Below are positions 30,601 through 62,132 of a DNA stretch of 64,000 bases, one piece after another. The stretch lies in the NCBI GenBank assembly GCA_951640195.1, contig OX621176.1, forward strand, positions 1,054,001 through 1,118,000. The letters are read 5' to 3'. The stretch is from Porpolomopsis calyptriformis (Eukaryota > Basidiomycota > Agaricomycetes > Agaricales > Hygrophoraceae). The notes under the pieces were generated by a model. The model worked only from the letters and a program-made list of their open reading frames with translations, was not told where the DNA came from and did not search any database. The position numbers and the translations under genes are program-made. How positions within the stretch are numbered: the first letter of the stretch is position 1; every line of letters starts with the position of its first letter.

Positions 30601-32438
30601 ATGATTGTGCCTAGGATCATCTTCAGTCGACCAGAAAGATGAGAGGAAATGTTGGGAAATGCATCGTTCAACACTTGACCGTATAACCGATCAAGGTTAT
30701 AATCCGGAGACGAGTCTTCCGTTACCGTGGGTGCATTACAGAGAAGACGCCCAAGTTGATGTTTCGGGTCGCAATAGTTTCGGTCTTCAATAAATCTGAC
30801 TGACGTGGACGCAAAGATGAAAAGTCCAAAAGACATCCGCGTCAGGGAATGGACGTCCGCGATAGAAGGCCATTCGTTTTCAAGATGATACGACTCTCGC
30901 GTAGCAGCGAGCTTCGTCGAAAGGTAGTGTTTGATATCGTTCTGCACGACGCCTAGTTCCACTTCGTGCAAAATGTATCGCTGAGTCACTGGGTTCAATT
31001 CGCTCGACCTAAAGACAGTGGTAATATGATTTTCTGGCCGACTCGTTACCAAGAATTTTAACGGGAACAGCTCGTTGACGTGACGAGAGAGTGATGATAA
31101 GATGATGGAGGTCGTCCCAGTCTCCTTGCATTCATCAAGTGCATCCAATACAACAATGCATGGAGGGAATAAGTTTCTGAGTGTGCGAAGAGGCTTTATG
31201 ATGAGCTCTTCAAGTTGATATGGAGGTGTGGTATAACCAATGTCAGGATTTGACCTCATAGCACGAGTAACCTCCGCTCTGAACGAAGGGTTCAGGATCC
31301 CGAGCTGGTAGGCGATGGTGGTGAAGATCATATTCGGATTGCTGCAATTTGCGTCGTCACGCGAGCAGAAGAAGCTCGCACCAAGAATATCAAATATTCT
31401 GCAGGCCTCCGCGACAGTGAAAGCAATCGTGGTTTTCCCTGTCCCAGCCGATCCATTGATCCAAAAGATAGTCGTATTCATTGCAACCGCATTGGCCTGA
31501 CTTCCTAAAATGAGGGTTGATTGGGGTTGTGAATCACTGACGCCAATCCAGCGAAAAATTTGATCAAGAATATCCGCTCGCGTGCCTTCCAAGCATCGTG
31601 CTCGATCTTTGCAGTTAAATGGAGCAAAGATGGCGTGTGGGGGGTGATGCTCATCGAGGATGGCTTCATGGAGGTCATCTATTTTGTCTTGAATTATGAC
31701 AGCATGTTCCTCCATCCTGACCGCATGTTCCTGGGAGTACGTGAGCGATGATCCTATTGAGGGGAATGGAAATTAACACACATCAAGTGCCGATTCGATC
31801 GAAAGTGCAGCCTCTGCCTGTCCACAAAGCCCGGCACCGATTCATATCATTCAAACATTGAACTACATAAGCAAACAGCCATACCATAAAGGTTTGCATC
31901 GACCACGTAATCGTCTGGATATGGCCGTTAATTAACTGCGTATCATCGTCACAGCGGACAAATCGCTTCAAGGCATGTCGGGAAGCCATCTTTCGCAGTT
32001 CTTCTAGGGCCGCATTCGAGGTGCTATAGAGACACAGATCAAACTAGTTCATTGTGGTAAGGAGACAGTGCGTACGTGAACAAGCGATTTATTCGGTCAA
32101 GGGCCAATGGAGAAATCGTCCCTTGACTTTTCGAATTTCCAAGGACCAGGTTGAAGCTTTCGATCTGTTTTGAGAGTCTCTCGACATCTTCTGCGTTTTG
32201 AGATGTTTTCTGCATCTCTCGTCAGAAGGCACAAACGCACACAACAATTGAGATCTACCTTGACAACGTCTAGAACGAATAGCAGACCACTTATGCCTGC
32301 TTTTAGCCCAGGCACTGCTGCATCTCCTACCACGTCTTTGGCTATTCGGAGAGTTGTTTGGAGAGCACTAATAGCGGTGGAACACGCCTGCTTCAACTTC
32401 TCCTTGTTCTCCAACTTTGCTTTAACTGAGCGGAACAT
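27621..32438 (-). CDS. NACHT-WD40 STAND receptor with about 15 near-identical WD repeats
   Basis: Five exons join in frame to 1532 residues: 32438-32259, 32209-32076, 32023-31885, 31817-31782 (36 bp) and 31730-27621. The N-terminus (ALQTTLRIAKDVVGDAAVPG, GLLFVLDVVK) is the helical region usual before NACHT in agaricomycete receptors. The NACHT has P-loop INGSAGTGKTT and Walker B CIVVLDALDECKE, then a winged-helix-like part. From about residue 800, fifteen 42-residue WD units follow, most of the form GHSDxVxSVAFSPDGTRIVSG and LWDAVSGAHL; units 6, 8 and 9 are degenerate. The end is an atypical blade (FGYIKNGWVHSFSWGRR). HET-E/HNWD proteins of this architecture control heterokaryon incompatibility and recognise ligands through rapidly changing WD repeats. 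The tiny exon 4 and the last acceptor (CCCAG at 31731) were chosen to keep frame. Confidence 0.9.
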
Positions 32439-42758: not shown

Positions 42759-43440
42759 CCCGACAAGCGGATAATTCAAACGAACCGAATGTTGTATGAC
42801 GGATAGTGACCAGGCTAGTCTCGACGTAGCGTATCCACTGGTGGTCGGAACGTGAAAAGCTTACGCTTGGTCTTTATATGATTCTATATAGCTAGCCAAC
42901 TTGTTCGACATCTGGGGAAGGAAAGTTCTTGAACTTTCCTTCGGCGGATGTTGAACAAGTTACCAACACAGAACGCGACGAGACCCAGACTCTCTCCTTT
43001 GAAGGTCTTGCCACCAGGGTTGCGGATGAGTGATCGAACGGGAACTGTGCGTGCAGCGATTTCTGCTGATGCTACCATACGCAATCACAGCTCTGGCAAC
43101 AAGACCAGTGCGTGAAGAGCAGAAGGGATGAGCTACTATTTGTTCCGTGTGGACAGCTTGATCGCGGTGAGACGATGGATGGGGAGATAGCCTGTAGCCA
43201 CGAACAGCAACACATTGATCAGAGTGATCTTATATCCTCGAAGACAAAGCCTTCGTGAACGGTGAAATAATCTATCGCCTTGGTATTAGGGCAGTGCAGA
43301 CAAATAGGAGAGGACTTGGATAGATGACATCGCCTCGGTGAATTTGTCCTCGCGAGTTGTATAATGTTGAGCGATAGAGATGGACCCAGCCGCTGGTGAG
43401 CATGAGATTCAGTCGAATGATGGACGTGATGGAATGCGGA
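42759..43440 (+). repeat. Dispersed repeat R1, left copy
   Basis: The first 410 bases are almost identical to 45167-45578, and weaker similarity continues to 45747 with deletions in the right copy. It contains a long hairpin (42898-42961). On the minus strand an open frame (SAEIAARTVPVRSLIRNPGG...) is present in both copies but lacks an identifiable family, so this may be a relic of a gene or a non-autonomous element. Ends are sharp: CCCGACAAGCGG at the left in both copies. Confidence 0.85.
42898..42961. other. Long hairpin inside R1 (left copy)
   Basis: Arms of 31 bases (42898-42928 and 42931-42961) pair with four mismatches around a TT loop; the inner 11 bases (AAGGAAAGTTC) are perfect. 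The right copy has the same hairpin at 45308-45371 with AA as the loop. Confidence 0.8.
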
Positions 43441-43444
43441 CCGT

Positions 43445-43640
43445 ATGGTTGAAACGATTGTTATCCCCTTCGTTACGCGGGACAATCTTCAAGGAATGCT
43501 CAAACACGACCTTGTGAATGACAGAAATGCGCATGTCCAGATCCTTGGGAGTTCAGAATCAATAAATGAGATGATGGTCGATAAAAATGATACCTCCGCT
43601 CGACGGCAGTTGAAATCGCTCACTTCGACCGCTGCAAGCC
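43445..43640 (-). pseudogene. Relic of a microexon secreted-protein gene (repeat R3, left copy)
   Basis: Read on the minus strand this matches 46060-46265 read on the plus strand. Both contain a shortened version of family exon 3 (GATTCTGAACTC...AAGGATCTGGACATGCGC) and the next acceptor-like CTGTCATTCACAAG, so they are scraps of the secreted-protein family caught in an inverted repeat. Confidence 0.65.
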
Positions 43641-43765
43641 AACCAACGGAGTAGGTAGCAGCATCCAGTCAGATTTCTACCGCTAGATCTCAACCATCCG
43701 GTCGTGAGTTTGAAAGCAGAATTTGACTGATCCCTCGCAGGATTCTTGACCTTGTGCAGGCTTGC
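43615..43765 (+). repeat. Inverted repeat R2, left copy
   Basis: About 150 bases whose reverse complement recurs at 45745-45895 with few changes (for example CTACTCCGTTGGTTGGCTTG read on the minus strand). It lies directly upstream of gene A. Confidence 0.85.
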
Positions 43766-43809: not shown

Positions 43810-43934
43810 ATCACCGATATTGGCATTCCCAATTTTCTAGAGCTGGTCTCCCCATTTTAACAAACACCTCAGTCAGTACCCCTCCTGCTCATATCAGGCT
43901 GTCACACCATTCCTGGTCCCCAGATCGAATCACC

Positions 43935-44538
43935 ATGCGCTTCTCCCGTTACCTAGTAGCCACCGCCGCCGCCGTCTTTGCCACCACAGCAATCGCCATG
44001 CCCATGGTGTGTGAAATCACCGTTTCTCTCTGTCCATTTCTATCTCAATTCCCTGTCTCTGCAGCCTGACGATTTTTCCTATGATCTGTCGGCCCGTGTG
44101 AGTCACCCGTTCTGAGAGTCGAACGACCCTCGAACCCCGCCATTTACGCCGTTCACAGGAAGATTATGATTCTCCATTCCTCCCAAGGTCTTACGAGGAT
44201 CTGGACATCCGCGTGCGTCGCCCCCTCCACGCTTAATCCTCTCCACGCAACTGACCATTTCTGTCATTCACAGGACGACATTGGAAGGGAAGTGTACCAC
44301 CCGAGGGATTACCAAGTCCTCGAAGCCCGCGTACGTCGTGTTCGGCTTGAATCTCGTTTTCGTAGAATTGACCATTTCCCTCCGCCCACAGATGGGACCC
44401 ACCGAGTTGGCTTTGCAACCCTATTTGGCCGAGCTCCCGAGTCTAGTAGAGGGGATGATAAAGGGTAGAAAAGCGAGGAAAGAGCTCCCCTGCTGCCCCT
44501 CCAGGGAGCAGTGTAAATATTGTTCTGCTGGACCTTGA
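43935..44538 (+). CDS. Microexon small secreted protein A
   Basis: Five exons, all phase 0: 43935-44006 (72 bp), 44065-44097 (33), 44159-44212 (54), 44274-44330 (57) and 44392-44538, giving 120 residues. Exon 1 is a signal peptide, MRFSRYLVATAAAVFATTAI, ending AMPM. The microexons code PDDFSYDLSAR, EDYDSPFLPRSYEDLDIR and DDIGREVYHPRDYQVLEAR. The last exon is unique to this copy: a helical, mostly acidic start (LAELPSLVEGMIKG), a basic RKARK site, then a four-Cys tail (CCPSREQCKYC). No family outside this window is known to me. It is the most diverged of the intact members. Confidence 0.8.
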
Positions 44539-44740
44539 GAATTTGACAGCGATCGATATGGAAACCCTTGCAGAAAGCTGGGCGCGTTCGTCTCTCAAAC
44601 AGTCATCCATGTGAAAAACCAGCGCAGCGGAGACATGAAATCATAACGCCAGCCGTTGGCAATGTCATGCCAACCCTTTTCGCAAGAATGCAAACCTTCA
44701 GGTTGACAAGCATCGTGTCATGTCTCGCATGCCCTTACCG

Positions 44741-44748
44741 TATAAATA
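44741..44748 (+). promoter_or_regulatory. TATA box of secreted-protein gene B
   Basis: TATAAATA, 116 bases before the ATG; the following CGCTGAAATTTGG and CAGAGCTGGTCTCCC are shared with copies C, D and F. Confidence 0.7.
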
Positions 44749-44856
44749 TCGCTGAAATTTGGATACTCAATTTCCCCTCAGAGCTGGTCTCCCATTCCAT
44801 TTCACCTTCGTTCTCTTCCTGCCCATATCAGATCGTCAGACCACACTCGAATCACC

Positions 44857-45166
44857 ATGCACTTCTCCCGCTGCTTCGTAGCTACCATGGTCGTCTTTGC
44901 CGTCACAGCGATCGCATTGCCTGTGGTGTGTACTCCCCCCCTCTGTTCGTTTTTTATCTCAATTCCCCGCTTTTGCAGCCTTGACGATTTTTCTTATGAT
45001 CTGTCGGCCCGTGTAAGTCGCCTTCTCGGGACCACCATCCCATTTTAACCTTTCCACAGGAAGATTATGATTCTCGACACTTCGCAAGGTCGTACGAGGA
45101 TCTGGACATCCGCGTACGTCGCCCCTCCACCCTTCATTCTCTCCACACAACTAACCTTTTGCCATG
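44857..45166 (+). pseudogene. Microexon small secreted protein B, frameshifted and truncated
   Basis: Exon 1 (44857-44925) codes MHFSRCFVATMVVFAVTAIA plus LPV. Exon 2 has one extra T (CCTTGACGAT against CCTGACGAT in other copies), which creates an immediate TGA. Exon 3 (45061-45114) is intact, EDYDSRHFARSYEDLDIR. The gene then stops inside the third intron, at TTTTGCCATG, where repeat R1 begins at 45167. It is nearly identical to copy C over the shared part. Confidence 0.85.
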
Positions 45167-45747
45167 CCCGACAAGCGGATAATTCAAACGAACCGAATGT
45201 TGTATGACGGATAGGGTGACCAGGCTAGTCTCGACGTAGCGTATCCACTGGTGGTCGGAACGTGAAAAGCTTACGCTTGGTCTTTATATGATTCTATGAA
45301 GCTAGCCAACTTGTTCGACATCTGGGGAAGGAAAGTTCAAGAACTTTCCTTCGGCGGATGTTGAACAAGTTACCAACACAGAACGCGACGAGACCCAGAT
45401 TCTCTCCTTTGAAGGTCTTGCCACCAGGGTTGCGGATGAGTGATCGAACGGGAACTGTGCGTGCAGCGATTTCCGCTGATGCTACCATACGCAATCACAG
45501 CTCTGGCAACAAGACCAGTGCGTGAAGAGCAGAAGGGATGAGCTACTATTTGTTCCGTGTGGACAGCTTGATTGAGATGAGACGATTTGAGGATGGGGAG
45601 ATAACCTGTAGCCACGATCTTATGTAAACGGGCAGTGCAGACAAATAGGAGAGGACTTGGATCAAATCGAGATGACATCGCCTCGGTGAATTTGTCCTCG
45701 CCAATGTTGAGCGACCCAGCCGCTCGAATGATGGACGTGATGGAATG
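45167..45747 (+). repeat. Dispersed repeat R1, right copy
   Basis: Direct copy of 42759-43440. It interrupts gene B exactly before its fourth exon. Its hairpin lies at 45308-45371 with an AA loop. Beyond 45570 it lacks several short blocks present in the left copy. Confidence 0.85.
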
Positions 45748-45895
45748 CACAAGGTCAAGAATCCTGCCAGGGATCAGTCAAATTCTGTTTTCAAACTCAC
45801 GACCGGATCGTTGAGATCTAGCGGTAGAGATCTGACTAGATGCTGCTACCTATACTCCGTTGGTTGGCTTGCAGCGGTCGAAGTGAGCTACAGTC
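45745..45895 (-). repeat. Inverted repeat R2, right copy
   Basis: Reverse complement of 43615-43765. It joins R1 directly at about 45747, whereas in the left locus R1 and R2 are separated by R3, so the right locus has an inversion or rearrangement. Confidence 0.85.
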
Positions 45896-46059
45896 GAACC
45901 CGTCTTAACCCATACCCCTCAGTTACAGCTCCAGGCTATGGGTTATAAGAGAGTATGGGATTTCAGGGTGCTGCTATGGTGGTAAATGGCAATGGGGGAG
46001 TATGTATGCGTTATCAGGGGTATGGGTTCGACTGTATTTCAACTGCCGTCTCGCTAACT

Positions 46060-46265
46060 TTGAGAGCGGAGGTATCATTTTTTGCAGCCCACCTCTCGGG
46101 TCCATCATTTGATTCTGAACTCCTCCCAAGGATCTGGACATGCGCGCAACTGACCATTTCTGTCATTCACAAGGTCGTGTTTGAGCATTCCTTGAAGATT
46201 GTCCCGCGTAACATCCGCACAATTACGAACGACACCGTTCAACTACGAAGGGGATAACAATCGTT
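46060..46265 (+). pseudogene. Relic of a microexon secreted-protein gene (repeat R3, right copy)
   Basis: Contains GATTCTGAACTCCTCCCAAG and GATCTGGACATGCGC, matching exon 3 of gene A with an internal deletion, then CAACTGACCATTTCTGTCATT as in intron 3 of gene A. The same block occurs inverted at 43445-43640. Confidence 0.65.
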
Positions 46266-46407
46266 TCTTAGCGGTATAGAAAAGCGAGGAAAGCGCTCCC
46301 CTGCTCCCCCTCGAATTTGACGGCGATCGATATGGAAACCCTTGCAGAAAGCTGGGCGCGTTCGTCTCTCAATTGAACAGTCATCAACCAGTGCAGCGGA
46401 GACATAA

Positions 46408-46465
46408 CGCCAGGCTGACGTCGGCAAGCAATGGCATGACATCGTTTGCCGACGTCAGCCTGGCG
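46408..46465. repeat. Perfect 20-bp inverted repeat with 18-bp spacer
   Basis: CGCCAGGCTGACGTCGGCAA (46408-46427) and its exact reverse complement (46446-46465) flank 18 bases. Outside the arms the sequence TTCGTCTCTCAATTGAAC occurs on both sides as a direct repeat. The arms contain the palindrome TGACGTC, but the unit looks like a small insertion or a template-switch product ahead of gene C. Confidence 0.8.
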
Positions 46466-46570
46466 CGTTCGTCTCTCAATTGAACGGTCATCAACCAGTG
46501 CAAGAATGCAAACCTTCAGTTGACACGCATCGTGTCATGTCTCGCATGCCCACAGCCGTCACTGGCACCG

Positions 46571-46578
46571 TATAAATA
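46571..46578 (+). promoter_or_regulatory. TATA box of secreted-protein gene C
   Basis: TATAAATA, 113 bases before the ATG, with the shared block AAATTTGCACACTCAGTTTC and GAGCTGGTCTCCC behind it. Confidence 0.7.
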
Positions 46579-46683
46579 TCGCAGAAATTTGCACACTCAG
46601 TTTCCCCTCAGAGCTGGTCTCCCATTCCATTTCACCTTCACGCACACCGTCATATCAGATCTTCAGACCACACTCGAATCACC

Positions 46684-47649
46684 ATGCACTTCTCCCGCTG
46701 CTTCGTAACTACCACGGTCGTCTTTGCCGTCACAGCGATCGCATTGCCTGTGGTGTGTACTCCCCCCCCCTCTGTTCATTTTTTTAAATCTCAATTCCCC
46801 GTCTCTGCAGCCTGACGATTTTTCTTATGATCTGTCGGCTCGTGTAAGTCACCTTCTCGGGACCACCGTCCCATTTAACCTTTCCACAGGAAGATTATGA
46901 TTCTGGACACTTCGCAAGGTCGTACGAGGATCTGGACATCCGCGTACGTCGCCCCTCCACCCTTCATTCTCTCCACACAACTGACTGCTTTTGCCATGCA
47001 CAGGACGACTTTGGAGGCGAACTGTACTATCCGAGAGATTACGATGACCTTGAAGCCCGCGTACGTCGTGCTCCGCTCGAGTCTCGTTTTCATCTAATTC
47101 ACCATCTCCCTCTCACCACAGGCATACGAAATTTCCCATCTGAACTCGCGTGATCAAAATCCACCCATATTCTCGCGGTCGATGCCCAATCTTGTGCATA
47201 TTTTCCGCCGCGGAAATGAACACAGGAAACGAAAACCAAAGTTCTCGCCCACAGTAGAACAACACCATATCGCCGGCCCATCCAACCCAAGTCACCCACA
47301 GAAGAAAGCCAAGTCATTTGACCAGGAAGGATCGAGTCCCTGGCCGTCGTCCTCCGATCCCCAGCAGGGACACATTTTGCCCAAGCCTTCGCGCCAGTCT
47401 TCTTCGCACCAGTCTTCGCGCCAGTCTTCGTTAAGTGTAGTAATACCACCATATTCAGGAACCGGACTGGAACCTCCGGTAATAGCGGTTCAATCACCGG
47501 GTAATATGACGCCTAAAACACCGGGTGGACTACAGAGTGGCACGGTCTACAATGCCAAGACCAATGAGCAACAGTATCAACCCAAAACCCCGATCTCTAT
47601 AACACCAGGGCCGTACCCCCGAACGCCGGAGCAGCGACATGGTAGCTAA
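46684..47649 (+). CDS. Microexon small secreted protein C (long tail)
   Basis: Five phase-0 exons: 46684-46752 (69 bp), 46811-46843 (33), 46890-46943 (54), 47004-47060 (57) and 47122-47649, giving 246 residues, the longest member. Signal peptide MHFSRCFVTTTVVFAVTAIA. Microexons: PDDFSYDLSAR, EDYDSGHFARSYEDLDIR, DDFGGELYYPRDYDDLEAR. The last exon begins AYEISHLNSRDQNPP, shared in pattern with F and G, then becomes unique: RR and KRK basic sites, a Ser/Gln repeat (SRQSSSHQSSRQSS) and a Pro/Gly/Thr-rich end. Predicted secreted and largely disordered. Function unknown. Confidence 0.82.
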
Positions 47650-47838
47650 TTCAGTCGATCGAGTCCTACAGTAGTTAGCCTTCAACTAGCAATTCACTCT
47701 GCATACATAAGCTCGTGACTCGGCGTGCAGATCATTTTCTCGTGGTAATTTGTTTGCGGTCAAGACCCGACCGTTGCCAACCGTAAGCGAGATAGGGGTC
47801 ATCTGATCGACCGCAAATATGAAATTATCACCAAATCG

Positions 47839-47846
47839 TATAAATA
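47839..47846 (+). promoter_or_regulatory. TATA box of secreted-protein gene D
   Basis: TATAAATA, 99 bases before the ATG, followed by CTGCACACTCAGTTTCCCCT and GAGCTGGTCTCCCC, as in copies C and F. Confidence 0.7.
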
Positions 47847-47937
47847 TCGCTGAAATCTGCACACTCAGTTTCCCCTCAGAGCTGGTCTCCCCATTTTACC
47901 TTCACGCACCCCATTCCCCCCCCCCTAGTCAATCATC

Positions 47938-48529
47938 ATGCACCTCTCCCGCTGCTTCGTAGCCACCACCCTCATCTTCGCCGTCACAGCGATCGCCATG
48001 CCCACGGTGTGTACTCCCCCCCCCCCTCTGTTCATTTTTTTTAAATCTCAATTCCTCGTTTCCGCAGCCCGACGAGTTTTCTTATGATCTCTCAGCCCGT
48101 GTAAGTCACCTTCTCGGGGCCACCATCCCATTTTAACCTTTCCACAGGAAGATTATGATTCCGGACTCTTCGCAAGGTCTTACCAGGATCTAGACATCCG
48201 CGTACGTCGCCCCTCCACCCTTCATTCTCTCCACACAACTAACATTTTGCCATGCACAGGACGACCTCGGAGGCGAACTGTACTATCCGAGGGATTACGC
48301 CGACCTTAAACCCCGCGTACGTCGTGTTTGGCTTGAACCTCGTTTTCGTAGAATTCACCATCTCCCCTCCCCGCTATAGAAACTTGAGAATTCACCCCAA
48401 AGAAGCCCAGTACCTCCGCGGGATCCCAATTCTCATGTCCAAAGAGATTCCTCGAAAAAGCCCGAGGAGCATTGCCATTGCCATAAAACCAAACGATACA
48501 TTCCACCCGGACCGAGAAGACTGTATTAA
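47938..48529 (+). CDS. Microexon small secreted protein D
   Basis: Five phase-0 exons: 47938-48006 (69 bp), 48068-48100 (33), 48148-48201 (54), 48260-48316 (57) and 48380-48529, giving 120 residues. Signal peptide MHLSRCFVATTLIFAVTAIA. Microexons: PDEFSYDLSAR, EDYDSGLFARSYQDLDIR, DDLGGELYYPRDYADLKPR. The last exon starts KLENSPQRS (E and S align with AYEISH of C), then has a His/Cys patch HCHCH, a KR site and the short end YIPPGPRRLY. The 3' flank (48590-48640) recurs inverted beyond gene F. Confidence 0.82.
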
Positions 48530-48649
48530 AGTACCACCATCAGCCTCAACCCGTAGGGAAAAAGGTAAAGGGAGGACCCTGAATGGGATAGTGCTGAGCG
48601 CTAAGCCATGCATTCGTTGGTACTGTAATGATAATTCCCCTAAATGAGA

Positions 48650-48905
48650 TCGCTACTGCTCTCAATACCGTGACGCGTCAGACCTTTGCTCTCAACCCAC
48701 ACACACTTACCCCTGTCGTTATTTGTCAAGACGGCTCATTTGTGTGAATCAGATAGGGTCATCTCGTATGATTATGAGGTCCGGTACCATGTCAATATCA
48801 CTGAAATTTGCATGGATACCAATTGGTCTTTCTGGCATCGCATACGGAGATGGGGGATCATCTGACGGACGGGTGAAAACTGAGTGTGCGGTAGGGGGAG
48901 ACCAG
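48650..48905 (+). repeat. Promoter-type repeat upstream of E, inverted copy at 62090-62360
   Basis: The block containing AAATTTGCATG, ACCAATTGGTCTTTC and CATCTGACGGACG matches the reverse complement of the region upstream of gene G. It lacks a TATAAATA. At its end GGGGGAGACCAG (48893-48904) and CTGGTCTCCCCC form a 12-bp palindrome around CTCTGATCAGAA, a duplication of the promoter motif in opposite direction. Confidence 0.7.
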
Positions 48906-48944
48906 CTCTGATCAGAACTGGTCTCCCCCTTCGCCCATCGCACC

Positions 48945-49187
48945 ATGCACTCCTTCGTAGCCACCACCGTCATCTTCGCCGCCACAACGATCGCCTTGCC
49001 TGTGGTGTGTACTCCCCCCCTCTGTTCATTTTTTTAAATCTCAATTCCCCCCTGTTGCAGCCCGACGATTTTTCTTATGGTCTGTCGGCCCGTATAAGTC
49101 ACCTTCTCGGGACCACCATCCCATTTAACCTTTCCACAGGAAGATTATGATTTCGGTCTTACCAGGATCTAGACATCCGCGTACTCC
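48945..49187 (+). pseudogene. Microexon small secreted protein E, broken
   Basis: Exon 1 (48945-49004) is 9 bp short in the signal peptide (MHSFVATTVIFAATTIALPV). Exon 2 (49061-49093) codes PDDFSYGLSAR but its donor is ATAAGT instead of GTAAGT. Exon 3 starts EDYDF and then has a deletion that shifts it into TAG. No fourth or fifth exon follows; the GIT1-type gene's stop is 40 bases further. Three independent lesions make this a dead copy. Confidence 0.88.
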
Positions 49188-49227
49188 CTGGCTGCGATCG
49201 CCGTGAATGCGCGAGTCCATAAGAGCC

Positions 49228-51565
49228 TTACATCGTGGATACGATAGATTTCGTACCATCATCCTCCCCAACCTCACCATGCCATCCGTTAGCAGCGAGA
49301 TAATTCATGAACTTTCCATCCTCGTCCGCCAAATCGACCCCAGTCATGTCTGGCACAAAGAAATACGTGACTAGGATTCCAACGATACCGCAAATGGCGG
49401 CGATGATGAAGGTCCATCTGATTGGTTATCTTGATGAAAAAGTGAAAGGGAATGGTACCTGTCGAACGCACTTCTTTCCAAGGGCATTTTGGATGGGTGT
49501 GAAAGCCTGTGTGCCCAGTGCTGCGCCGGTCTTACCCACAGCAGCTGAAATGCCGTAGAATGAACCCCTAGGGAGAATATTGTCCTGAACGTTTCAAGCC
49601 AGAAAAATACTGTTACCTTACCTGATGGGCGTAGGATATGATCTGAAGCTGTCTTTGTGGAACGTAGATTGAAGAGCAAAGCAAGCACGTACTCGGCACT
49701 GACAAGACCCAACATATCACCAGGCCCCTGCATAATTGTCAGATTTATCAACGAACAGAGAAAACCGCGTGATCAAGCTTACAAGATTCCCGAACGATTG
49801 CATAAGACCATAACTGGGGTATATCAAGCCAGTTAATTGATCGTTGGGAAGTGCCAAGGGAACTCACAATATCACAAATAGCGGGATGATCTGGGTGATC
49901 TTGTCGTAGCTAAGGCCGATCGCCAAGCCTAAGCATGAAGTTAACATCAACATGAGCTTGTTCAATAGGCAAGACAGACCGAATATAAGATATCCACTGA
50001 AACCAAGCATCATCTAAACCAAAGATGGAAAACAGGAGTAAGGAGAAATCGACGCCATGCGTACCGTCCCACGCCTACCCAATCGGTTACAGAGGAGGGC
50101 ACCAACAAGTACACCTGGAAGAGCAATTGCACCCAGCAAAAGCTGCCATTCAGCGGTTCGCTTGATGTCCCCGTCGCGAATGACGCTGGAGATAATTGTG
50201 CCAGAGAAAACGCCATTGGGAAAGGTAACCTAGATGCGAATGGATAATTCAGCAAAAAAAAAAAAGCTGCTAGAATCACGCACAAAGTCGTAAAGGAACC
50301 TGTAAAAATTCAACTTAATGTCGTGACGCTGAGGAGACGACGAAGACTCGCCAGGCACCGCATGTTCCAATCAAGGACCTCCAATAACGTCGTATAGCAA
50401 GTCCATAAGGCACACGACCTAAATGAAAGAATTAGGGCAAAGCGGGGCTGGTCACTTGGTGACGGGTACACACTCTTGATTGCTCCTTTCTTATAGAGCT
50501 TCGAGCTAAGCATTCGCAGACGAAAGAAGAATACTGTCGTTGGGAGCAGAATCCCGATACCAAAACATACACGCCAGACAGTCTCTAAATGATTTGTGCC
50601 TGCGGCCGAGAGGACGATCAGAAAAACAGACACGGCCAACGGACCCCCGAACTTTCGGAAGGTGATATTATCAGTGGGACATGTTTGATTCATGTTTGAT
50701 TCACGTATGTACATACGCTGAGAACGAAGTTTGTGACCATTATGAAAACTGCGTGAAGATATATAAGGATCATGACATATGAAGACAATCAGTTTGACTG
50801 CACCCGGTCCTCGATTTGCAACCATCTTTTCGTTGGCGGCTTCGCTTGCCGACGTGGAAGAGGCGGGGTATTCCCCGCCGACACCCTGAAGCAAGCAAAT
50901 TTAATGAGCCCTCTCAGTGTAAAGTGGGCCATAAACTACTGACGATCCCGGTGATACCTCGGGCGAATGTCAAGAACCAGAAAAGACCAGGTGCAGACCC
51001 CCCAGAACCGCGTGCGGTAGTTCCCAATGTAGCCCCGATGACAATAAGTAACGTTGTTGAGACTAGGGCGACCTTCCTTCCGAGGCGGTCACATACGAGG
51101 CCAACAACAACTTGACCGAAGACAGCGCCTTGAAATTTAAGAGAGAAACAGATGTCAAGGACAAGAAAAACGCCTCGGTAGACTTTGAGTGTTTACCAAC
51201 GAGCAAGGAATTCGATACTCGAGTGGAAACTTCCGGGGTGTACGCTTTGGGGTACAATTTCTTAAAGACAACCTGGGCACAATATTAGGCCTTCCACGGG
51301 AAAGTTTTGCAGGATGATCACATTTGACATGGTCATTATATTGTTCTGATCTTTAAGACGCGATCAGAGCGCGTGGAACATTTATCGATGTACGGTACTC
51401 ACAACCATCGCTGATCAAGCCGAATGCTGCAGCCAAGATTGTGAAAAACGCGCTCAACCGTTCCTTTGGGTCGACATTGGGCAAGTCATGCACAATGGCG
51501 GATTTTTTGGAAACCGGCTCGCCGGCTGAGATATGCTCTTTTTCTTGCATGGACATGGAAGTCAT
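49228..51565 (-). CDS. git1: GIT1-type MFS transporter (glycerophosphodiester/phosphate family)
   Basis: About a dozen small exons on the minus strand, start ATG 51565 (MTSMSMQEKEHI), stop TAA 49228-49230. Landmarks in order: LSAFFTILAAAFGLISDG, YQNNIMTMSNVIL, LYPKAYTPEVSTRVSNSLLV, GAVFGQVVVGLVCDRLGRK (the MFS motif A), FWFLTFARGITGI, GVGGEYPASSTSASEAANEK, VTNFVLSFGGPLAVSVFLIV, TIISSVIRDGD, GLVSAE and a cytosolic end VDLADEDGKFMNYLAANGWH. This is the plasma-membrane phosphate:H+ symporter group that includes yeast Git1, which imports glycerophosphoinositol and related compounds. Twelve membrane helices are expected; I did not place each. Exon boundaries between 49600 and 51350 are approximate. 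Confidence 0.85.
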
Positions 51566-51845
51566 GATAGAGAAGGACGAGGGAAGCCATCTCTTTAGCT
51601 TTTATCCAACCTTCGAAATTTTGGGTGTTTGGCACGTGCTCGTCTGGAGACGAGCAGTGGAGCATCTGCTAGCGCTGGTGAGTATGTAGATGCGAGTAGT
51701 AGCTGGCTGTGTATGTGTCGAGTAGTAGCTGGTTGTGTATGTGTCCGGGGGCGGTGATGAGCTGCAAACAATTAGCCGCTGGGGAGTGGAGTCATCAGAC
51801 ATAACTGGAACAGCTCAGAGCGGGAGTCTTGCCAGTACGACCACC

Positions 51846-54870
<3,025 letters not shown>

Positions 54871-55239
54871 TGGAAGGAGATAAGAGACGAACCCACAATC
54901 TATGTGGCAACCAAGCGGGAGCCATCTCTCGCTCAGAATAAGGGTACCATGGCGTAAGTATCGTAGGAGGTGGCCTCTTGTATCTATCCTGGGGCTCGCA
55001 TGTCGACCACTTGGAATATCAATGGGTTGATTGAGGGATTGAGAATGCAGGATACCGTGCCACAACCGCCGTTGTGGCTTACAGGGGTACCGGCCGTTGA
55101 CAACAAGACCTTTTTTGTTCCCAATTTCAACGATGCTTGGACCTTTCTGAAAGAGGAACACATTAAGCGAGACAAAAGAAAAAGTCTGAATAGTACAAGA
55201 GATCTAAAGTCTAAATAGAAATAAAGAAATGAATCTATA
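54871..55239. other. Convergent 3' region
   Basis: Between the stops of ARG5,6 and the C2H2 gene. Open frames here start at non-ATG codons and show no family signal. Confidence 0.55.
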
Positions 55240-56444
55240 TTACAAAACATCTGTCCACTCTTTCGTCCAGTCAAAAGGTGTGGGTATGAGGAAATCATAC
55301 AGGCAAGGGTCAAGGGGTGTCAGAGGGGGTGTCGGTGACTGTGATTCAGGTGTTCCACTGGGAGAGGGGGTAAAGTTTTCTAAGATCCGATTGTAATCTT
55401 GTTCGTTTGGTATATAACCGGTGTCACAATTGACGCTCTGTTGTGCGAATCCCCATAACCAGCTATCAAAAGGGCTGTCTTCAAAGGAGGGGTACAGGGG
55501 AGCCTGACCAAACTCGCTCTGGACATTGGGAGTGAGAACGGATGGAGGCATGGGCTCGAACCAAGAGCCGGTGGATTCGATGTCCGCGTTCTCTCCCGCA
55601 GGTTGGGCTTGCGAATATGTTTCGTAGGAGCTGACAAGCAGGTCGAGAAATCCAAGATTCGGGCTCTCGACGGAGACCAATGGTTTCGGGTCTGGGGTAG
55701 GGTGGGGTGAATGATGCCCCGAAAACGTGCGGGGGTGGTCCGAATCTGGTGGCGCGATGCCGATCTCTCCGTGGAGTGTTTCGGGCAGAAGAGGAAAAGG
55801 AGGAGGAGGAAGCCGTGCCATGAGTGAATAAATCGACTCGGTCGCGGCATCTGGCGGGGGTGGTGTGAGATCGACGGTGTCCCCACTCGATGACGAGTGG
55901 GCATCAAGCCTCGAGTTGGGTGGACCTGCAGAGGGCACTTTCCGAGCAGGTTTCTTCCGTGGCTTTGGGTTGTAATTGTGGTTTCGCTTCCGGTGTCGGT
56001 TCAACGAGCCGGGGTCGGTGCAGGAAAAGTCGCAGCTGGGACATGGTACTCGTTCACCGGTGCTGTCGTCGAGAGGGCATGTGAGCGAATGGTGCTGAAA
56101 AGCATAGTGGGATGGACTGACTGTGTTCGAATGTGGGTGACCACATTGGGCTTTTGTAGATTCTTGTAGTCGCACTCCTTGTACGGGCAACGGAACATTC
56201 TGCGGTGCCACATGAAATATGAGCTCGATACGCGTCAAGGAGGAATATAGACGTACAATACGTCCTTTTCGGGATCGTGTGTTCGCATGTGTCGGGCAAG
56301 GTCCGACTTTCGACCAATGATAGCTTCGCAAATGGGGCAAGAGACGGGAGAAGGTTTCCTCTGCATGACATCATTTCGCGTCACAAGACGGAAGGAAGGA
56401 AGGAGACTCACGGCAGACTTGCGCGAAGAGGGAGCAGGAGGCAT
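55240..56444 (-). CDS. C2H2 zinc-finger transcription factor (three fingers)
   Basis: Minus-strand gene with small 5' exons and one long last exon. The start MPPAPSSRKSA at 56444 splices (GTGAGT...GCAG) to RKPSPVSC; an in-frame ATG at 56528 (MALSLLPF) is an alternative. Fingers: CPICEAIIGRKSDLARHMRTH, CPYKECDYKNLQKPNVVTH and CPSCDFSCTDPGSLNRHRKR followed by NH, each on its own exon or part exon. A basic segment (KPRKKPARK) follows, then a Pro/Ser-rich acidic region of about 230 residues ending TPFDWTKEWTDVL, likely an activation region. Targets cannot be inferred from sequence. Confidence 0.82.
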
Positions 56445-56929
56445 AGTGAGTCTGGGAGAGGACGGGAGATGATCGGGAACGGTTGTGGGGAGTAGGTTGG
56501 AGGGAAAGGGGAGTAAGGACAGTGCCACGAAGGATCGAAACGCGTCCGCTTAAATAGGACGGGGACGCTTTGGTGGAAGGTGCCATCGGACATGATTGCT
56601 TTGAAGATTTCTACCGTAAAAGGAGAAAAAACAGAGAACCAAACAAGTGAGCCACCTAAAGTTGACAATTACGGAAATTTAATGGATTGGTTGCGATGCA
56701 TGTTTGGTTTTATTGCCATCTCAGGTAGGTGTGTGCGCCTAAAGAAATTGCCTCGACCGGGAAGAAAGGGTTGAATGAGCGACGGAGAGGAGATATGATG
56801 GTGGCACGAACTTACCTTCGAGGAGGAGAAGTCGAAGCCAAGCTGAGAAACACGATCGACGGTGTACGTAATAATCCAAATCGAGACGGATCGACGCTTG
56901 AACATTGAATCAACTACTACATTATCACT

Positions 56930-58683
56930 TTAGAACAGTCCAGCGAGGTCTGCAAACGGATCCTTCCCTTGACTTTGACTCTGACTTGTAGGGATATCTA
57001 CAGAACTACCTTGCTGCCGCGGTGGCATCTGCTGTGGTTGACTGTGCGGTCGCTGTGGCACCATCGAAGTCATCCCACCGCTCACTCCAGGCCCTCCAGC
57101 CATGTAATTCGGTATCGTGAACCGGGGTTGAGGCGTCCCGGGCAACATGATCGATCCCACCTGTGGCTGCAGAGGTGGCGTGCCCGAAGGTTGCATCATC
57201 GACATCGGTCGCGGCGCCGACCCGCCCACCAAACTCGCGTTCATGCCCATCCCAAAGTTGTTCGAAGGCACTGGCGAGGCGAACATTCGCGGCGCGGAAG
57301 AGCTTAGCCCGATCGGTGGGTTCGACGGAGCGAGACCCGGGCCAAAGAGCGACGCGAGCTCGTCCTGGGCCGAGGGGCCTCCTGTCGGTTTGGGAGACGT
57401 GCTCTCGTCGAAATCGATCAGCGATTGGTCGCTCTTTCCCGGCGGGTCGGCTGCGAGTTCGGCGGGGATGGGGTTCGAGGACGTCACGTAGTCGCCTTTC
57501 TTGAACGCCTCGTAGCGGTTCAGTACCGTGTTGATCTGGTCGTTGATTTGAAGGAATGTGTCTGTTGGGGGGGGATTTTCAGAATGGAAAAAGTCTGGAA
57601 GACGTGATACTCACCTAGTGATTCTGGGTCATCAGTCTCAGCATCCGAGATCCACTTTTGTATCTTCGGGCGTGCACTCGACAGAATCGAGGCCACTTGC
57701 TGTTACATTGAGAAACACTTCAGTATCATTCGTTAGCATCAGCCCAACCGACGTTCACCTCGTACACATCTCCAGCCGCAAACTTCTCTCCTTTCTCGGT
57801 ATCCACATTGTCCAGCATCTCATTCAACAAAATCACTTTCTGTTCCAGCTTGTTCAGGTCGGTCAGAGCCTGACTGCGGTAATCTGGCTTGGATTCCGGA
57901 TTCGCTCCCGCAAGTGTTTTCATCAACTCTTGTGCAGCCGCCAAATCTCGAGGCGTCCCTCGCCGAATCAGCTCCTGTAGTTTGGCGGATTGGGCTTCCC
58001 TATCCTCGGATTCGAGCTCCTCGGCCGATTTTAAATTCTGTTGTGGAAAAAAAAATGGATACGATTGTTTCTCCGGTAGAGTACATTCGACACACACCGT
58101 AGCCGCGTTAAGAGATTGTTGTGGGGGAACAGGGCGGAAGCGATATCCTTTGAACGTCAACAACCGATGCATGTCCCTAATGTTGCCCAAATCTTCGCGC
58201 CATCTCGAATCGACACAGATGCCTTCCTTCCAACTGTTGATAAGTTCCAAAATTCGGGTCATCACAGGGCCAGGGAAGGGTGGCGGCTTTTCGGGGAAGC
58301 GCCGCACAAGCTCGTTCAGGAACTCCTTTGTCGAAATTTGCAGGTGGAAGGGATATCCGCAGGACTGGATCAGGGTTTCTAGAAGAGCTAGAGCCAGAAT
58401 CGCGACGTGCGGATTCCGATGGTTGGAGAAACGGGCGATAAGCATGGCTGCCTCTCGAGGACTATGGAATGCGCCATGTCCCAAAGTCAGCCTGTGAGGT
58501 CGATCGGGTGGGTGAGGGGCCCTCTGGAAGTAGCACGTACCTGTTTGCTTTCTTGGTATTGATGAACTCGGCAACCTCGAGATGGACCGCATAGTTGGGC
58601 TCGTGCAGCGAAGGATCGCAGGCCCGGGTGATGAGGACCTCTATTGGAGAGACTTTGAGCCAATTCGTTGAACTGCCCAGCAT
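56930..58683 (-). CDS. VHS-GAT domain trafficking adaptor (GGA-like, no ear domain)
   Basis: Start ATG 58683 (MLGSSTNWLKVSPIEVLITR). The VHS domain covers about residues 10-150: NYAVHLEVAEFINTKKAN-SPREAAMLI (joined over an intron), HVAILALALLETLIQSCGY, FHLQISTKEFLNELVRRF and ILELINSWKEGI. A GAT-type three-helix region follows (QSAKLQELIRRGTPRDLAAA, QALTDLNKLEQKVILLNEML, ILSSARPKIQKWISD, DQINTVLNRYEAFKKGDY). The rest is a Pro/Gly/Ser/Met hinge with acidic DQSLIDFDES and the end DPFADLAGLF, which looks like a clathrin/adaptor-binding peptide. GGA proteins sort ubiquitinated cargo at the trans-Golgi and endosome; this one lacks the C-terminal GAE ear, so it may be a distinct fungal VHS-GAT type. 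Confidence 0.85.
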
Positions 58684-59461
58684 ATCGATGGATTTTCAGA
58701 CACGGGCCGCTTACAACTGGAGCTAGCTCTTGATCAAGATTTTCTGCTGTGCAGTTGTGACAACATGACTTGGAACATAGATCACGCTCGCTGCTAACAA
58801 CGATGTCCTCAAGCTCAATACTCTATTCGTTTGGTGATGCCCCGCTTGGACCACTCGTCCTTTTCGGCTCGGTGTGACCGCCTCATCTAACGAGTGATAG
58901 AAAACGTAGGATCGATGCCCAGTAGCATGCCACTGGCAACGATGTGCCCGGGGAGAGCAATCTTTGGTTCAATGGTATGTAGCTAGCCTTTGGCCTATCA
59001 TTACATCCTTAGAAGATCGTCGAGAGCGTATTGATCAAAAAGCACTCCTACCAGAAACGTACACCTATCCACACTTTTTATGAGTCGCGCCCTCACAAAA
59101 AGACGCCTTGGGCGTAACAGATCCTAAATCGCAGCATTGTTCCCCCTAGGCGTCGCTGGCGGGCAATTGCAGGAGCGAACGGCGATGGGCCAACCAAGGT
59201 GGATTTCAGTCGCCACTTTTCGCTTTTAAGCCACTCAGCATCTCCATGTTTGATCACTATCAGTACGTTGACCACAGGTTTTACAGCCTGATGATTCACG
59301 AAAATTTATTATTGCAGGTTTTGGAATAAATGTCTAAGCGACAGGTCTTGGTGGCATACCATGCCACCGCAGTCGTATAAACAACGCGTCCTTTAATCTC
59401 TAGATCCACCAAGTCCCTAAGAGCAGCTCTCCTCACTTGGCCACAACAAATCCGGTCACTA
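58684..59461. other. Intergenic, divergent promoters
   Basis: 778 bp between two divergent genes. Minus-strand open frames (59299-59093 and 59496-59296) have no support. No RNA gene or repeat was seen. Confidence 0.5.
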
Positions 59462-60268
59462 ATGACGAAAACGCGAGATTCGACCACCTCAGACAATCGA
59501 CCTCAATCTACCTTCGAGCCAGAACGCGAAGCCGCCATTGATTCAAGCGTGTTCTCCCCCGAAAACCGTGCCGGGCTTCTCTATCCTCACCCCAGCGATC
59601 GCCGCGAGCAGGTCGCCGCCGCCAACGAGAGCAGCCACGACCCAATCCCGTTCCCATCTCTCGGACCACCGGACGATGTCAGTCCACTCCTCGCTCTACA
59701 CGGCTCGATCGCGGAAATCCATGTGGACAACGAACACCTCGAGGTATGGGATGTGAAAGAAAAGTCAGTAGCCGCCCTACCCCCTCAATCACTGACTAAT
59801 TTTGTTTTATTTCTTCCCCTGCCCAGTTCGTACGTCGTTTTTCCAGCCGAGCTGCACATCCAATTCGAGAGTATGGCCGCGTGCGGACGCGCCGGCCGAC
59901 TGCGTTCCTACACCATCAATCTCTGCTGCCGGACGGTGGGCCCGCCGCGATGGCGGTACGAATTGTACGCGGTTAGCTACGCGGGCCATGATATCTGCGA
60001 GAGCAGCCTGTGGAAAATGAAGCACGCACACGGGATCCATATGGAGCACTCCTGGCGGGTGGCGAGCCTGGGAGGGGAGGAGCCACCGAGATTCCGGAAG
60101 AAGTTGTGGATACCGCTGCCGGCTGAGCTGTTTGCGAGAAAGGAGACGCGGGCGTGTGTGATCCACGCGTGGGTCGAGAGAGGGGAAGGTTTGCAGCCGT
60201 TGGAGGCGTCTCGGCAAATAAGCGTCACGGTGTTGAGGAGCCGTACGTATTGTTGTACTTTGACATGA
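59462..60268 (+). CDS. Conserved hypothetical protein
   Basis: Two exons, about 59462-59763 and 59827-60268 (GTCAGT...CCCAG), join as DVKE-N-SYVVFPAELHIQF. The first 85 residues are low complexity (Ser/Pro/Glu). The second exon looks like a folded beta-rich domain with conserved-looking aromatic and Cys residues (RLRSYTINLCCRTVGPPRWR, ELYAVSYAGHDICESSLW, EPPRFRKKLWIPLPAELF). I do not recognise the family. Without the intron the frame also stays open, so splicing is inferred from the quality of the joined sequence. Confidence 0.65.
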   Translation: MTKTRDSTTSDNRPQSTFEPEREAAIDSSVFSPENRAGLLYPHPSDRREQVAAANESSHDPIPFPSLGPPDDVSPLLALHGSIAEIHVDNEHLEVWDVKEKSVAALPPQSLTNFVLFLPLPSSYVVFPAELHIQFESMAACGRAGRLRSYTINLCCRTVGPPRWRYELYAVSYAGHDICESSLWKMKHAHGIHMEHSWRVASLGGEEPPRFRKKLWIPLPAELFARKETRACVIHAWVERGEGLQPLEASRQISVTVLRSRTYCCTLT

Positions 60269-60381
60269 TCAAGATTGTCTTCACCAGAGTCTTATAATTG
60301 ATCATTACTGCATCAACGAATGCATGGCTTAGCGCTCAGCACTTCTGTCATCATTTCAACACTATCCTTCAAGTACATTCT

Positions 60382-61102
60382 CTACTGATACCTGGGCTGC
60401 GAGCCCCTGAGACTCCTCCAGGCGTCTTTCACGCGCTGGATGCGATGCTTGTGATGCTTGTGGTGCCCGTTTCCCCCGTAGCCTTGGTTGTCTCCAACGG
60501 TGGCAAGATTGGCAGAAGGATCGGGGGAAAGTTGTTGGTTTGCGGTTCCATCATCCTGGAGCATATCCGGATCCGACATGCTGCGGCGGAGAATACGATT
60601 TGGGAGGCGGACTGCGGACAGGGATCCTGATGAATCCGGTTCACGCGAGTTCAGATGGGAAAATTCGTATTCCTGTGATGAGGAAGGTGAGTTATATGAA
60701 GACGAGGTTCGAGGTAAGCACGACGTACGCGGGATTCAAGGTCGGCGTAATCCCTCGGGTAATACAATTCGCCTCCCAAGTCGTCCTGTGCATGACAAAA
60801 GGTTAGTTGTGTGGAGAGAATGAAGGGGTGGAGGACGACGTACGCGGATGTCTAGATCCTGGTAAGACCTTGCGAAGAGACCAGAATCGTAATCTTCCTG
60901 TGGAAAGGTTAAATGGGATGGTGGTCCTGAGAAGGTGACTTACACGGGCCGACAGATCATAAGAATAATCGTCAGGCTGCAAAAGCGGGGAATTGAGATA
61001 AAAATGAACAGAGGGGGGGGGGAGAGTACACACCGTGGGCATGGCGATTGCTGAGGCGGCGAAGACGACGGCGGTGGCTACGAAGCAGCGGAAGAAGTGC
61101 AT
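60382..61102 (-). CDS. Microexon small secreted protein F
   Basis: Five phase-0 exons on the minus strand: 61102-61034 (69 bp), 60976-60944 (33), 60897-60844 (54), 60785-60729 (57) and 60672-60382, giving 167 residues. Signal peptide MHFFRCFVATAVVFAASAIA. Microexons: PDDYSYDLSAR, EDYDSGLFARSYQDLDIR, DDLGGELYYPRDYADLESR. The last exon begins EYEFSHLNSREPDSS, then unique sequence: RILRRS (dibasic), SDPDMLQDD, a His/Lys run GHHKHHKHR and the end WRSLRGSQPRYQ. Its 3' flank shares GCTGAGCGCTAAGCCATGCA with the 3' flank of gene D. Confidence 0.82.
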
Positions 61103-61237
61103 GGTGAGTAGAGTTGAGGACTAGGGCGATGGTTTGGTGAGTTGCTGGTATGGTGAGCGGGAGGGCTTACATGTTAAGGGCAGTTGTGAAAGGGAGACCA
61201 GCTCTGGGGGGAAACTGAGAAGGCAAATTTCAGCGAT

Positions 61238-61245
61238 ATTTATAC
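61238..61245 (-). promoter_or_regulatory. TATA box of secreted-protein gene F
   Basis: TATAAATA on the minus strand, about 143 bases before the ATG, followed by CGCTGAAATTTGCC and CAGAGCTGGTCTCCC, as in B, C and D. Confidence 0.7.
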
Positions 61246-61401
61246 GGTACTGGACGGGACGAGATAGGATCTCGTTCCGTCCTTTCCTCGGCAATCATGC
61301 AAATTGACCCCTATCTGACAAATATTCTGAAATTGGTCTGATCTACGGGTACATGATGGTTGCGCTCAGCACTTCTGAAATCATTTCAACGCTACCCCTA
61401 A

Positions 61402-62042
61402 TTACACACTCTTCGTTTGTAGGGGGCAGGCTGGTGGGGCTTGTCCATTGTAGAAATGGTTGTGGACCTGTGGGGGTTGGTGGGCGGGTGTTGGGTCGTA
61501 TGGCTTTGGGGGGGCCTTTCCGACGGAATAACGTTTTTGGAGGTGGACAGGAACATCGCGGGACATCAACCTCGATGGATTTTGTTCACGCGAGTTCAGA
61601 TCGGAAATTTCGTATTCCTGTGATGAGGAAGGTGAGTTATAGAAAGACGAGGTTAAGGTAAGCACGACGTACGCGAGATTCGAGGTCGGCGTAATCCCTC
61701 GGGTAATACAATTCCCCTCCCAAGTAGTCCTGTGGATGGCAAAGGGTCAGTTGTGCGAAGAGAATGAAGGGTGAAGGATGGCGTACGCGGGTGACTAGAT
61801 CCTCGTTAGACCTTGCGGAGAGTCCAGAATCGTAATCTTCCTGTGGAAAGGTTAAATGGGATGGTGGTCCTGAGAAGGTGACTTACACGGGCCGACAGAT
61901 CATAAGAATAATCGTCGGGCTGCAAAAGCAGGGAATTGAGATAAAAATGAACAGAGGGGGGGGGAGTACACACCGTGGGCATGGCGATCGCTGTGGCGGC
62001 GAAGATGACGGCGGTGGCTACGAAGCAGCGGAAGAAGTGCAT
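61402..62042 (-). CDS. Microexon small secreted protein G
   Basis: Five phase-0 exons on the minus strand: 62042-61974 (69 bp), 61919-61887 (33), 61840-61787 (54), 61729-61673 (57) and 61617-61402, giving 142 residues. Signal peptide MHFFRCFVATAVIFAATAIA. Microexons: PDDYSYDLSAR, EDYDSGLSARSNEDLVTR, DYLGGELYYPRDYADLESR. The last exon begins EYEISDLNSREQNPS, then unique sequence: LQKRYSVGKAP with a KR site and a Pro/His/Asn-rich end. It is tandem with F (same strand, 300 bp apart) and nearly identical to it outside the last exon. Confidence 0.82.
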
Positions 62043-62132
62043 GATGCGATGTAAGGTTTTTTGATTTGATATGGGCGAAGGTGAAATGGGGAGACCAGCT
62101 CTGAGGAAAACCCAGTGTGCAGGTTTCACCCG

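Follow-up and report, generated by a model that had tools for sequence, protein, structure and literature searches.

A cluster of genes in the agaric Porpolomopsis calyptriformis, lying in a 64,000-nucleotide (nt) stretch of contig OX621176.1 (assembly GCA_951640195.1, positions 1,054,001 to 1,118,000 of the forward strand; hereafter the window, whose first letter is position 1), appears to encode secreted prepropeptides with a constant front and a renewed tail, as one family within a larger promoter-tagged, rapidly diversifying set of secreted proteins. This is the explanation we favor, with moderate confidence and on sequence grounds. In the proposed mechanism, constitutive splicing would yield one precursor per gene, to be trimmed by signal peptidase, by a kexin-type protease at a basic pair and perhaps at single Arg residues, and perhaps by a dipeptidyl peptidase. 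An acidic region would form the pro-part, and a basic, often His- or Pro-rich tail would be the mature product. The copies would have spread via local duplication, with the tail replaced or diverging far faster than the introns, and the mature tails would have extracellular roles in conflict or recognition, for which fast tail change is expected. Co-expression with at least three other secreted families would probably be mediated by a TATA-linked leader element, AGAGCTGGTCTCC. A preliminary description of this stretch had drawn attention to the symmetric short exons; the family is real and unusual, but its exon plan is a secondary reason for interest, and more weight falls on the constant front with its renewed tail and on the genome-wide leader element. 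A constant front, a renewed tail and conserved introns together make a system in which the origin of new secreted peptides can be studied.

Similarity among the copies stops at the terminal exon

In pairwise comparisons of the five intact copies (c1, c3, c4, c6 and c7), similarity begins, depending on the pair, at the TATA region or at the ATG and continues across the introns; in c1 and c4 it stops with intron 4, and in c3, c6 and c7 it reaches 30-42 nt into exon 5. Intron identity is 69-100% among c3, c4, c6 and c7 and 53-85% in pairs with c1, and introns 1-4 of c6 and c7 are identical at 98, 100, 84 and 94%. Between the terminal exons of these two copies, only weak similarity is left over nt 46-120 (a score reached by 2 of 300 shuffles), and beyond nt 120 none of the ten pairs rises above shuffled sequence, with 96-291 of 300 shuffles reaching the observed score. 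Around the stop codon, similarity between c6 and c7 resumes (82.7% over 52 nt). The variable segment of the c6 terminal exon (60384-60638, minus strand) lies between a c7-like start and a c7-like 3' stretch; its counterpart in c7, delimited by pairwise comparison, is 61413-61583 (minus strand). The reading frame stays open in all five tails. For the tails of c3, c4, c6 and c7, no donor genes or other genomic copies were found beyond short matches inside the cluster, and the c1 tail, covered only within a DNA query of 44000-44600, likewise matched only inside the cluster.

Among c3, c4, c6 and c7, variable sites in the intron cores number 0/36 in intron 1, 3/28 in intron 2, 12/39 in intron 3 and 18/44 in intron 4, compared with 16/31 at fourfold sites; the contrast between introns and fourfold sites is weak once c1 is included (P 0.07 over all introns). 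The precursor part is more conserved than the mature part beyond neutral divergence, for which gene conversion of the 5' half is a possible cause. As judged from the sequences, the tail would have been replaced, or would have diverged much faster, or the front would have been homogenised; point changes at the intron rate cannot explain the pattern. The idea of a conserved-precursor peptide family, raised in the preliminary description, is in this way supported and sharpened by the fixed position of a basic pair (see below), together with a conserved signal and pro-region, unrelated tails and conserved introns.

Gene plan and arrangement of the copies

Exon-by-exon modelling confirmed the gene plan. 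Exon 1 measures 72 base pairs (bp) in c1 and 69 bp in c3, c4, c6 and c7, exons 2-4 measure 33, 54 and 57 bp in all five intact copies, and the terminal exons measure 147 (c1), 528 (c3), 150 (c4), 291 (c6) and 216 bp (c7). All 20 introns are GT-AG and phase 0, with lengths of 46-63 nt. Three intact copies lie on the plus strand: c1 (120 residues; exons 43935-44006, 44065-44097, 44159-44212, 44274-44330 and 44392-44538), c3 (246 residues; 46684-46752, 46811-46843, 46890-46943, 47004-47060 and 47122-47649) and c4 (120 residues; 47938-48006, 48068-48100, 48148-48201, 48260-48316 and 48380-48529). The other two are on the minus strand: c6 (167 residues; 61102-61034, 60976-60944, 60897-60844, 60785-60729 and 60672-60382) and c7 (142 residues; 62042-61974, 61919-61887, 61840-61787, 61729-61673 and 61617-61402). 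The gene models are taken as real because the lengths of exons 2-4 are fixed across the five copies while those of the introns vary, because variable sites in exons 1-4 of c3, c4, c6 and c7 favor the third codon position (15, 9 and 24 of 71 at positions 1, 2 and 3), and because the ratio of nonsynonymous to synonymous divergence (dN/dS) over exons 2-4 is 0.11-0.32 in the six pairs among c3, c4, c6 and c7; it is 0.42-0.91 in the four pairs with c1, the most divergent intact copy.

These models bear out the earlier count of five intact and two broken copies on a common plan, with internal exons of 33, 54 and 57 bp between phase-0 introns; the range of 60-72 bp given for exon 1 narrows to 69-72 bp in the intact copies, 60 bp occurring only in a broken one. 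Both broken copies, on the plus strand, retain exons 1-3 only. In copy B (44857-45167), exon 2 is 34 bp long, the frame is lost and intron 3 is interrupted by other sequence; in copy E (48945-49187), exon 1 has 60 bp, intron 2 lacks a GT donor, and exon 3 has 41 bp with nothing beyond. A third remnant, which had been missed, lies upstream of c3 (about 46145-46312, plus strand) and consists of pieces like c1 intron 3, near its acceptor, and the c1 terminal exon (46145-46171 matches 44246-44272 at 100%, and 46277-46312 matches 44466-44501 at 94%). The sequence interrupting intron 3 of copy B (45167-46212) includes a duplicated, partly inverted segment of about 1 kb from 42759-43758, in four pieces that are 71-96% identical to it. 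The family forms two inverted arrays flanking about 11 kb of other genes, including one for a NAT/semialdehyde-dehydrogenase and one for a VHS-domain protein.

The five copies descend from one gene, and their shared exon lengths therefore amount to a single observation. With about 40-50% of introns in phase 0, a few percent of genes would be expected to have four such introns in succession. In the genome (33.5 Mb in 17 contigs, the window being on contig C14), one DNA query (44000-44600) and one protein query (101 residues of c6) found no family members elsewhere, such short exons being hard to detect. Genes with exons of 33-57 bp may escape gene finders.

Architecture of the predicted precursor

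By hydropathy, without a dedicated predictor, all five copies begin with an N-terminal hydrophobic signal closing in A-x-A, directly followed by X-P-X-P, which resembles the Ste13-type (dipeptidyl-peptidase) sites in the portion of PMC9769878 consulted. Exons 2-4 encode 48 residues in five short units, each closing in Arg, usually as L-x-x-R; in c6 these are PDDYSYDLSAR, EDYDSGLFAR, SYQDLDIR, DDLGGELYYPR and DYADLESR. The five Arg are invariant in all copies, and each internal exon closes on one of them. Exon 5 of c6 opens with a sixth unit, EYEFSHLNSR, with similar starts in c3 and c7 and none in c1 and c4. Net charge switches from -7 to -11 in exons 2-4 to +2 to +10 in exon 5.

Counted from the start of exon 5, its first basic pair begins at residue 26, 29, 26, 29 and 28 in c1, c3, c4, c6 and c7, respectively, and ends 98-101 residues from Met in every copy, including c1 and c4, which have no detectable similarity to the others there. 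In a post hoc test, a position this tight arose in 1 of 200,000 joint shuffles; taken alone, the chance of a pair in the same four positions is about 5% for c1 and about 6% for c4. After the pair, the tails run for 21 (c1), 145 (c3), 22 (c4), 66 (c6) and 42 residues (c7), with no sequence detected that is common to the five. Pro or His is abundant in several tails, and no more than three Cys are present in four of the five full proteins. The c1 tail (44482-44538) is the only one with four Cys, all in its last 15 residues, and contrasts with the Pro- or His-rich tails of the other copies. The genome contains one locus with a kexin-type P-domain.

The same Arg-closed units could instead be the products, released as a string of peptides like those of KEX2-processed repeat proteins (KEPs), one or two per exon, with the variable tail as a spacer or by-product. 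This arrangement, which we consider rather unlikely, would account for five units with Arg invariant in all copies, for the sixth unit in c3, c6 and c7 and for the X-P-X-P motif after the signal, and cleavage after single Arg is reported for Agaricomycete KEPs expressed in P. pastoris in the part of PMC9769878 we draw on. However, the units differ too much to be called near-identical, exons 3 and 4 resemble each other only weakly, dibasic sites between the units are absent, and the variable tail is left without a reason. KEPs, which are known in Agaricomycetes, likewise place short units delimited by basic residues behind a signal peptide (as covered in the text drawn from PMC9769878 and PMC6339444). 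Their repeats are identical or near-identical, with KR, RR or KK in between, whereas the window's family has dissimilar units, single Arg and a single-copy variable tail. It accordingly shares the signal (by hydropathy) with KEPs but has neither near-identical repeats nor KR, RR or KK between them, its first pair lying after the units.

An origin of exons 2-4 by exon duplication is possible. The likeness of the exon 3 and 4 peptides is suggestive, with 78-842 of 20,000 shuffles (Arg fixed) reaching the observed similarity over the five copies, but the exon DNA is not above shuffles, and similarity scores of exons 3 and 4 that include their introns may owe much to the shared donor. Genome-wide, there is no excess of exons closing in L-x-x-R before a donor (35 sites, 10 of them in the cluster, versus 37 for a reversed control), and a stricter Arg-exon pattern gave 3 sites versus 2 in the control.

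A leader element shared by several predicted secreted families

Upstream of the family, the 13-mer AGAGCTGGTCTCC lies 38-39 nt past the start of a TATA-like box in c3, c4, c6, c7 and broken copy B and 37 nt past it in c1; counted from the first nucleotide of the element, the ATG is 60-103 nt downstream. The element occupies 43839-43851 (c1), 44780-44792 (copy B), 46610-46622 (c3) and 47878-47890 (c4) on the plus strand, and 61193-61205 (c6) and 62090-62102 (c7) on the minus strand. Upstream of copy E (48896-48927), an inverted exact element (48909-48897, minus strand) stands beside one with a single mismatch (48914-48927, plus strand); the inverted element also passes the ATG rule given below, we think by accident.

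The exact 13-mer occurs 26 times in the 33.5 Mb, 7 times in the window and 19 times elsewhere. At all 19 outside sites a signal-peptide-like ATG follows within 130 nt, and at 17 of them a TATA-like box lies 34-39 nt before, compared with 1548 of 34,383 random window positions passing the ATG rule and 31 of 34,383 passing both. Of seven outside sites with a mismatch inside the 13-mer, none passes either rule. Extended by a final C, the resulting 14-mer is found 12 times in the genome versus once for its reversed control, and with one mismatch allowed at 34 sites versus 4; the 13-mer is intact at 26 of the 34.

Signal peptides divide the 19 outside sites into three groups, namely family 2, with 12 sites on contigs C1, C4 and C11 (signal peptides MHFFRPLLAILASLAVAAAA and alike), family 3, with 2 sites on C8, and family 4, with 5 sites on C13 and C14 (signal peptides SAPLRVRSIDGFDLYPR and alike). 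At least three other secreted families with the element are represented among L071-L075, L086-L090, L092-L095, L098 and L100-L115, several of them in tandem arrays on C4, C11 and C14. No BLAST links among families 2, 3 and 4 were found at E 1e-4 (17 of the 19 loci compared). The window's family matches the sister families over 15-43 nt, and inter-family similarity is limited almost wholly to the leader element and a few flanking bases. Two matches are not centered on the element, one between the first codons of c6 and L110/L111 (34 nt, 85%, E 0.006) and one between c1 and L111 (15 nt, E 0.06); the signal-peptide exons of the window's family and family 2 may therefore share a distant ancestor. 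BLAST was used here because an ungapped comparison of leaders between families is uninformative, true relatives such as c3 and c7 also scoring low. By eye, families 3 and 4 carry Arg-closed stretches soon after the signal, and in family 4 similarity stops about 300-390 nt into the stretches compared, repeated introns aside. Pfam searches with six stretches of families 2 and 3 gave one sub-threshold match (E 0.25) and none for the other five.

It is in our view an even call whether this 13-mer, at a near-fixed distance after the TATA box and about at the predicted mRNA start, marks four or more secreted families, several of them fast-diversifying, as the common promoter core or 5' mRNA tag of an arsenal with a constant 5' half and renewed mature exons, the window's family being one branch and exons being multiplied between near-identical introns in another (L114, see below). 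As an mRNA tag, it would have transcripts starting at or just before AGAGCTGG. If the element works as it looks, one short string would predict a set of fast-evolving secreted proteins without homology, RNA or annotation, and would give a handle on their common regulator. Predicting effectors and signalling peptides is a standing difficulty in mushroom-forming fungi.

Literature searches on promoter elements of secreted-protein genes and on the leader string found no description of it among the papers listed, subscription journals being mostly missing; by title, none of the papers listed for the string is on a fungus. Short upstream elements that predict secreted genes do have precedents in STATAWAARS of a nematode (PMC6062891) and in a miniature inverted-repeat transposable element in Fusarium effector promoters (PMC3599309), as far as the sections of these papers at hand extend; the leader element differs in its sequence, its near-fixed TATA distance and its Agaricomycete host.

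Possible conservation of the front without selection on the tail

The conserved front could stem from gene conversion and not from selection on the tail. Gene conversion would then homogenise the 5' halves, and the tails would be old and drifting unconstrained, with no special role; we regard this as unlikely. The lower variation of introns 1 and 2 relative to fourfold sites counts in its favor, and so does family 2: L104-L106 have fronts that are 92-95% identical, while their exon 2 has only 18-27 of 79-82 residues in common and is near saturation in both site classes (dS 0.75-1.16, dN 0.67-1.11). The five open tails speak against it, as do L109-L111, which are younger and whose mature exons differ mostly at nonsynonymous sites. 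L110 and L111 have an identical front (287 nt) and an identical intron (56/56 nt) between mature exons 2 and 3; in these two exons together, nonsynonymous differences number 32 and synonymous ones 3 (Fisher P 4e-9 relative to front and intron).

Several other observations count against a rapidly diversifying, processed secreted family. Measured against synonymous sites alone, the nonsynonymous excess of L110/L111 is borderline (Fisher P 0.055) and that of L109/L110 falls short of significance (P 0.11), and some sister copies are alike along their whole length over more than 1 kb (L106/L107 at 83.5%, L073/L074 at 77.7%). Copy c1 may be relaxed, given dN/dS of up to 0.91 in its pairs. Regarding processing, c1 has an extra Arg and c4 an extra Lys inside a unit, the pairs RK (c1) and KK (c4) are poor kexin sites, and the P-domain match holds one TGA in frame (an intron or a broken gene). 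The shuffle test of pair position, besides being post hoc, includes three copies (c3, c6 and c7) that share ancestry at the start of exon 5, and 146,064 of the 200,000 shuffles left some copy with no pair at all. Finally, hydropathy was the only criterion for signal peptides at the leader-element sites, and its cut-off was chosen once the matches had been seen, so that the counts serve as a guide.

Symmetric exons and a possible module array in L114

The internal exons are all multiples of three with phase-0 borders and, as the preliminary description pointed out, could be skipped without frame loss; that much holds, but symmetry only permits skipping, and the plan is shared by descent. A micro-exon-gene (MEG) logic, in which exons 2-4 are skipped or combined into many secreted variants, seems to us highly improbable here. 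Exons of 33-57 bp are, in our view, ordinary for an intron-dense Agaricomycete. The unusual conservation of introns 1 and 2 among four copies is what splicing control would require, but the introns are short, with GT-AG in 20 of 20, as in ordinary constitutive splicing, and there are only three internal exons, in copies that share their plan by descent. Schistosome MEGs likewise encode secreted proteins from short exons, mostly multiples of three; according to the passages used from PMC10526429, they have 10-20 exons, mostly of 15 bp, with introns of about 0.1-5 kb, whereas the present genes have five exons, three of them short and internal, and introns of 46-63 nt. According to PMC11121469, filamentous fungi had no described functional microexons until that work.

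Micro-exon logic may fit the sister locus L114 better than the window's family. This member of family 4 (327-1371) is on C14, roughly 100 kb beyond the window. In it, dissimilar stretches alternate with five introns that are 52-57 nt long and near-identical, pairs of them agreeing at 41-54 of 52-57 positions. Between these introns lie four copies of a second intron-like core, and similar introns are present in L112, L113 and L115. From its sequence, L114 looks like a product of exon-intron module duplication with fast exon change, or of introner-like elements.

Comparison with known protein families

Searches of a protein collection returned no homologs at E<=1 with the family alignment (7996 candidates scored) and none at E<=10 when the constant part was the query (6 candidates). 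The collection includes Agaricomycete proteins, but intron-blind gene calls would miss such genes. For a neighbouring arginine-biosynthesis protein, the 120 matches listed of 994 include the Agaricomycetes Lyophyllum and Pholiota at 73-74% identity and other sequences at 82-84%. None of the five members matched any Pfam family, and the only match in the PDB was at chance level (E 3.3). These null results, together with the Pro- or His-rich tails and the scarcity of Cys, would also suit unprocessed, presumably disordered secreted or wall-associated proteins without peptide release, a reading made very doubtful by the fixed position of the first basic pair in otherwise unrelated sequence and by the charge switch between exons 2-4 and exon 5.

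Conserved-precursor, hypervariable-mature secreted peptides of the conotoxin type are a further comparison. The window's family has in common with them the conserved signal and pro-region, the hypervariable mature part, the conserved introns and local duplication, and differs in its unrelated sequences, its fungal host, the presence of more than two Cys only in the c1 tail, and tails without detectable homology beyond nt 120. By analogy, then, it may work like a conserved-precursor peptide family. The preliminary description knew of no fungal family with this plan; our literature search showed none either among the papers listed, which is weak evidence, subscription journals being mostly missing from it.

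Two families of effector-like secreted proteins are similar in one respect each. In cyst-nematode HYP effectors, conserved 5' and 3' ends flank a middle that is hypervariable (PMC11228951), but in the excerpts considered HYP variation shuffles a set of short motifs, and no shared motifs are seen in the window's family. The DELD proteins of Serendipita (Piriformospora) indica also form a small secreted multigene family, and exon 3 of four copies encodes RSY(E/Q)DLD, similar to RSIDELD. In the available extract of PMC3192844, however, the DELD motif is C-terminal in His/Ala-rich proteins; here the stretch is internal, in the pro-region, and none of the five C-termini carries a similar one. A dikaritin-type ribosomally synthesised and post-translationally modified peptide is not indicated either, UstYa (PF11807) having two matches in the genome, on C11 and C3, and none in the cluster on C14.

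Other features of the window

At gathering thresholds, Rfam matched nothing in the window. Away from the cluster, the window contains an NB-ARC ATPase domain (9983-10879, minus strand) and a large WD40-repeat protein (27621-31715, minus strand), which we take to be as in fungal NLR-like genes. Retrotransposon frames are found at 334-1437 (minus strand) and 3802-6771 (plus strand), both with RNase H and integrase and the second with reverse transcriptase as well.

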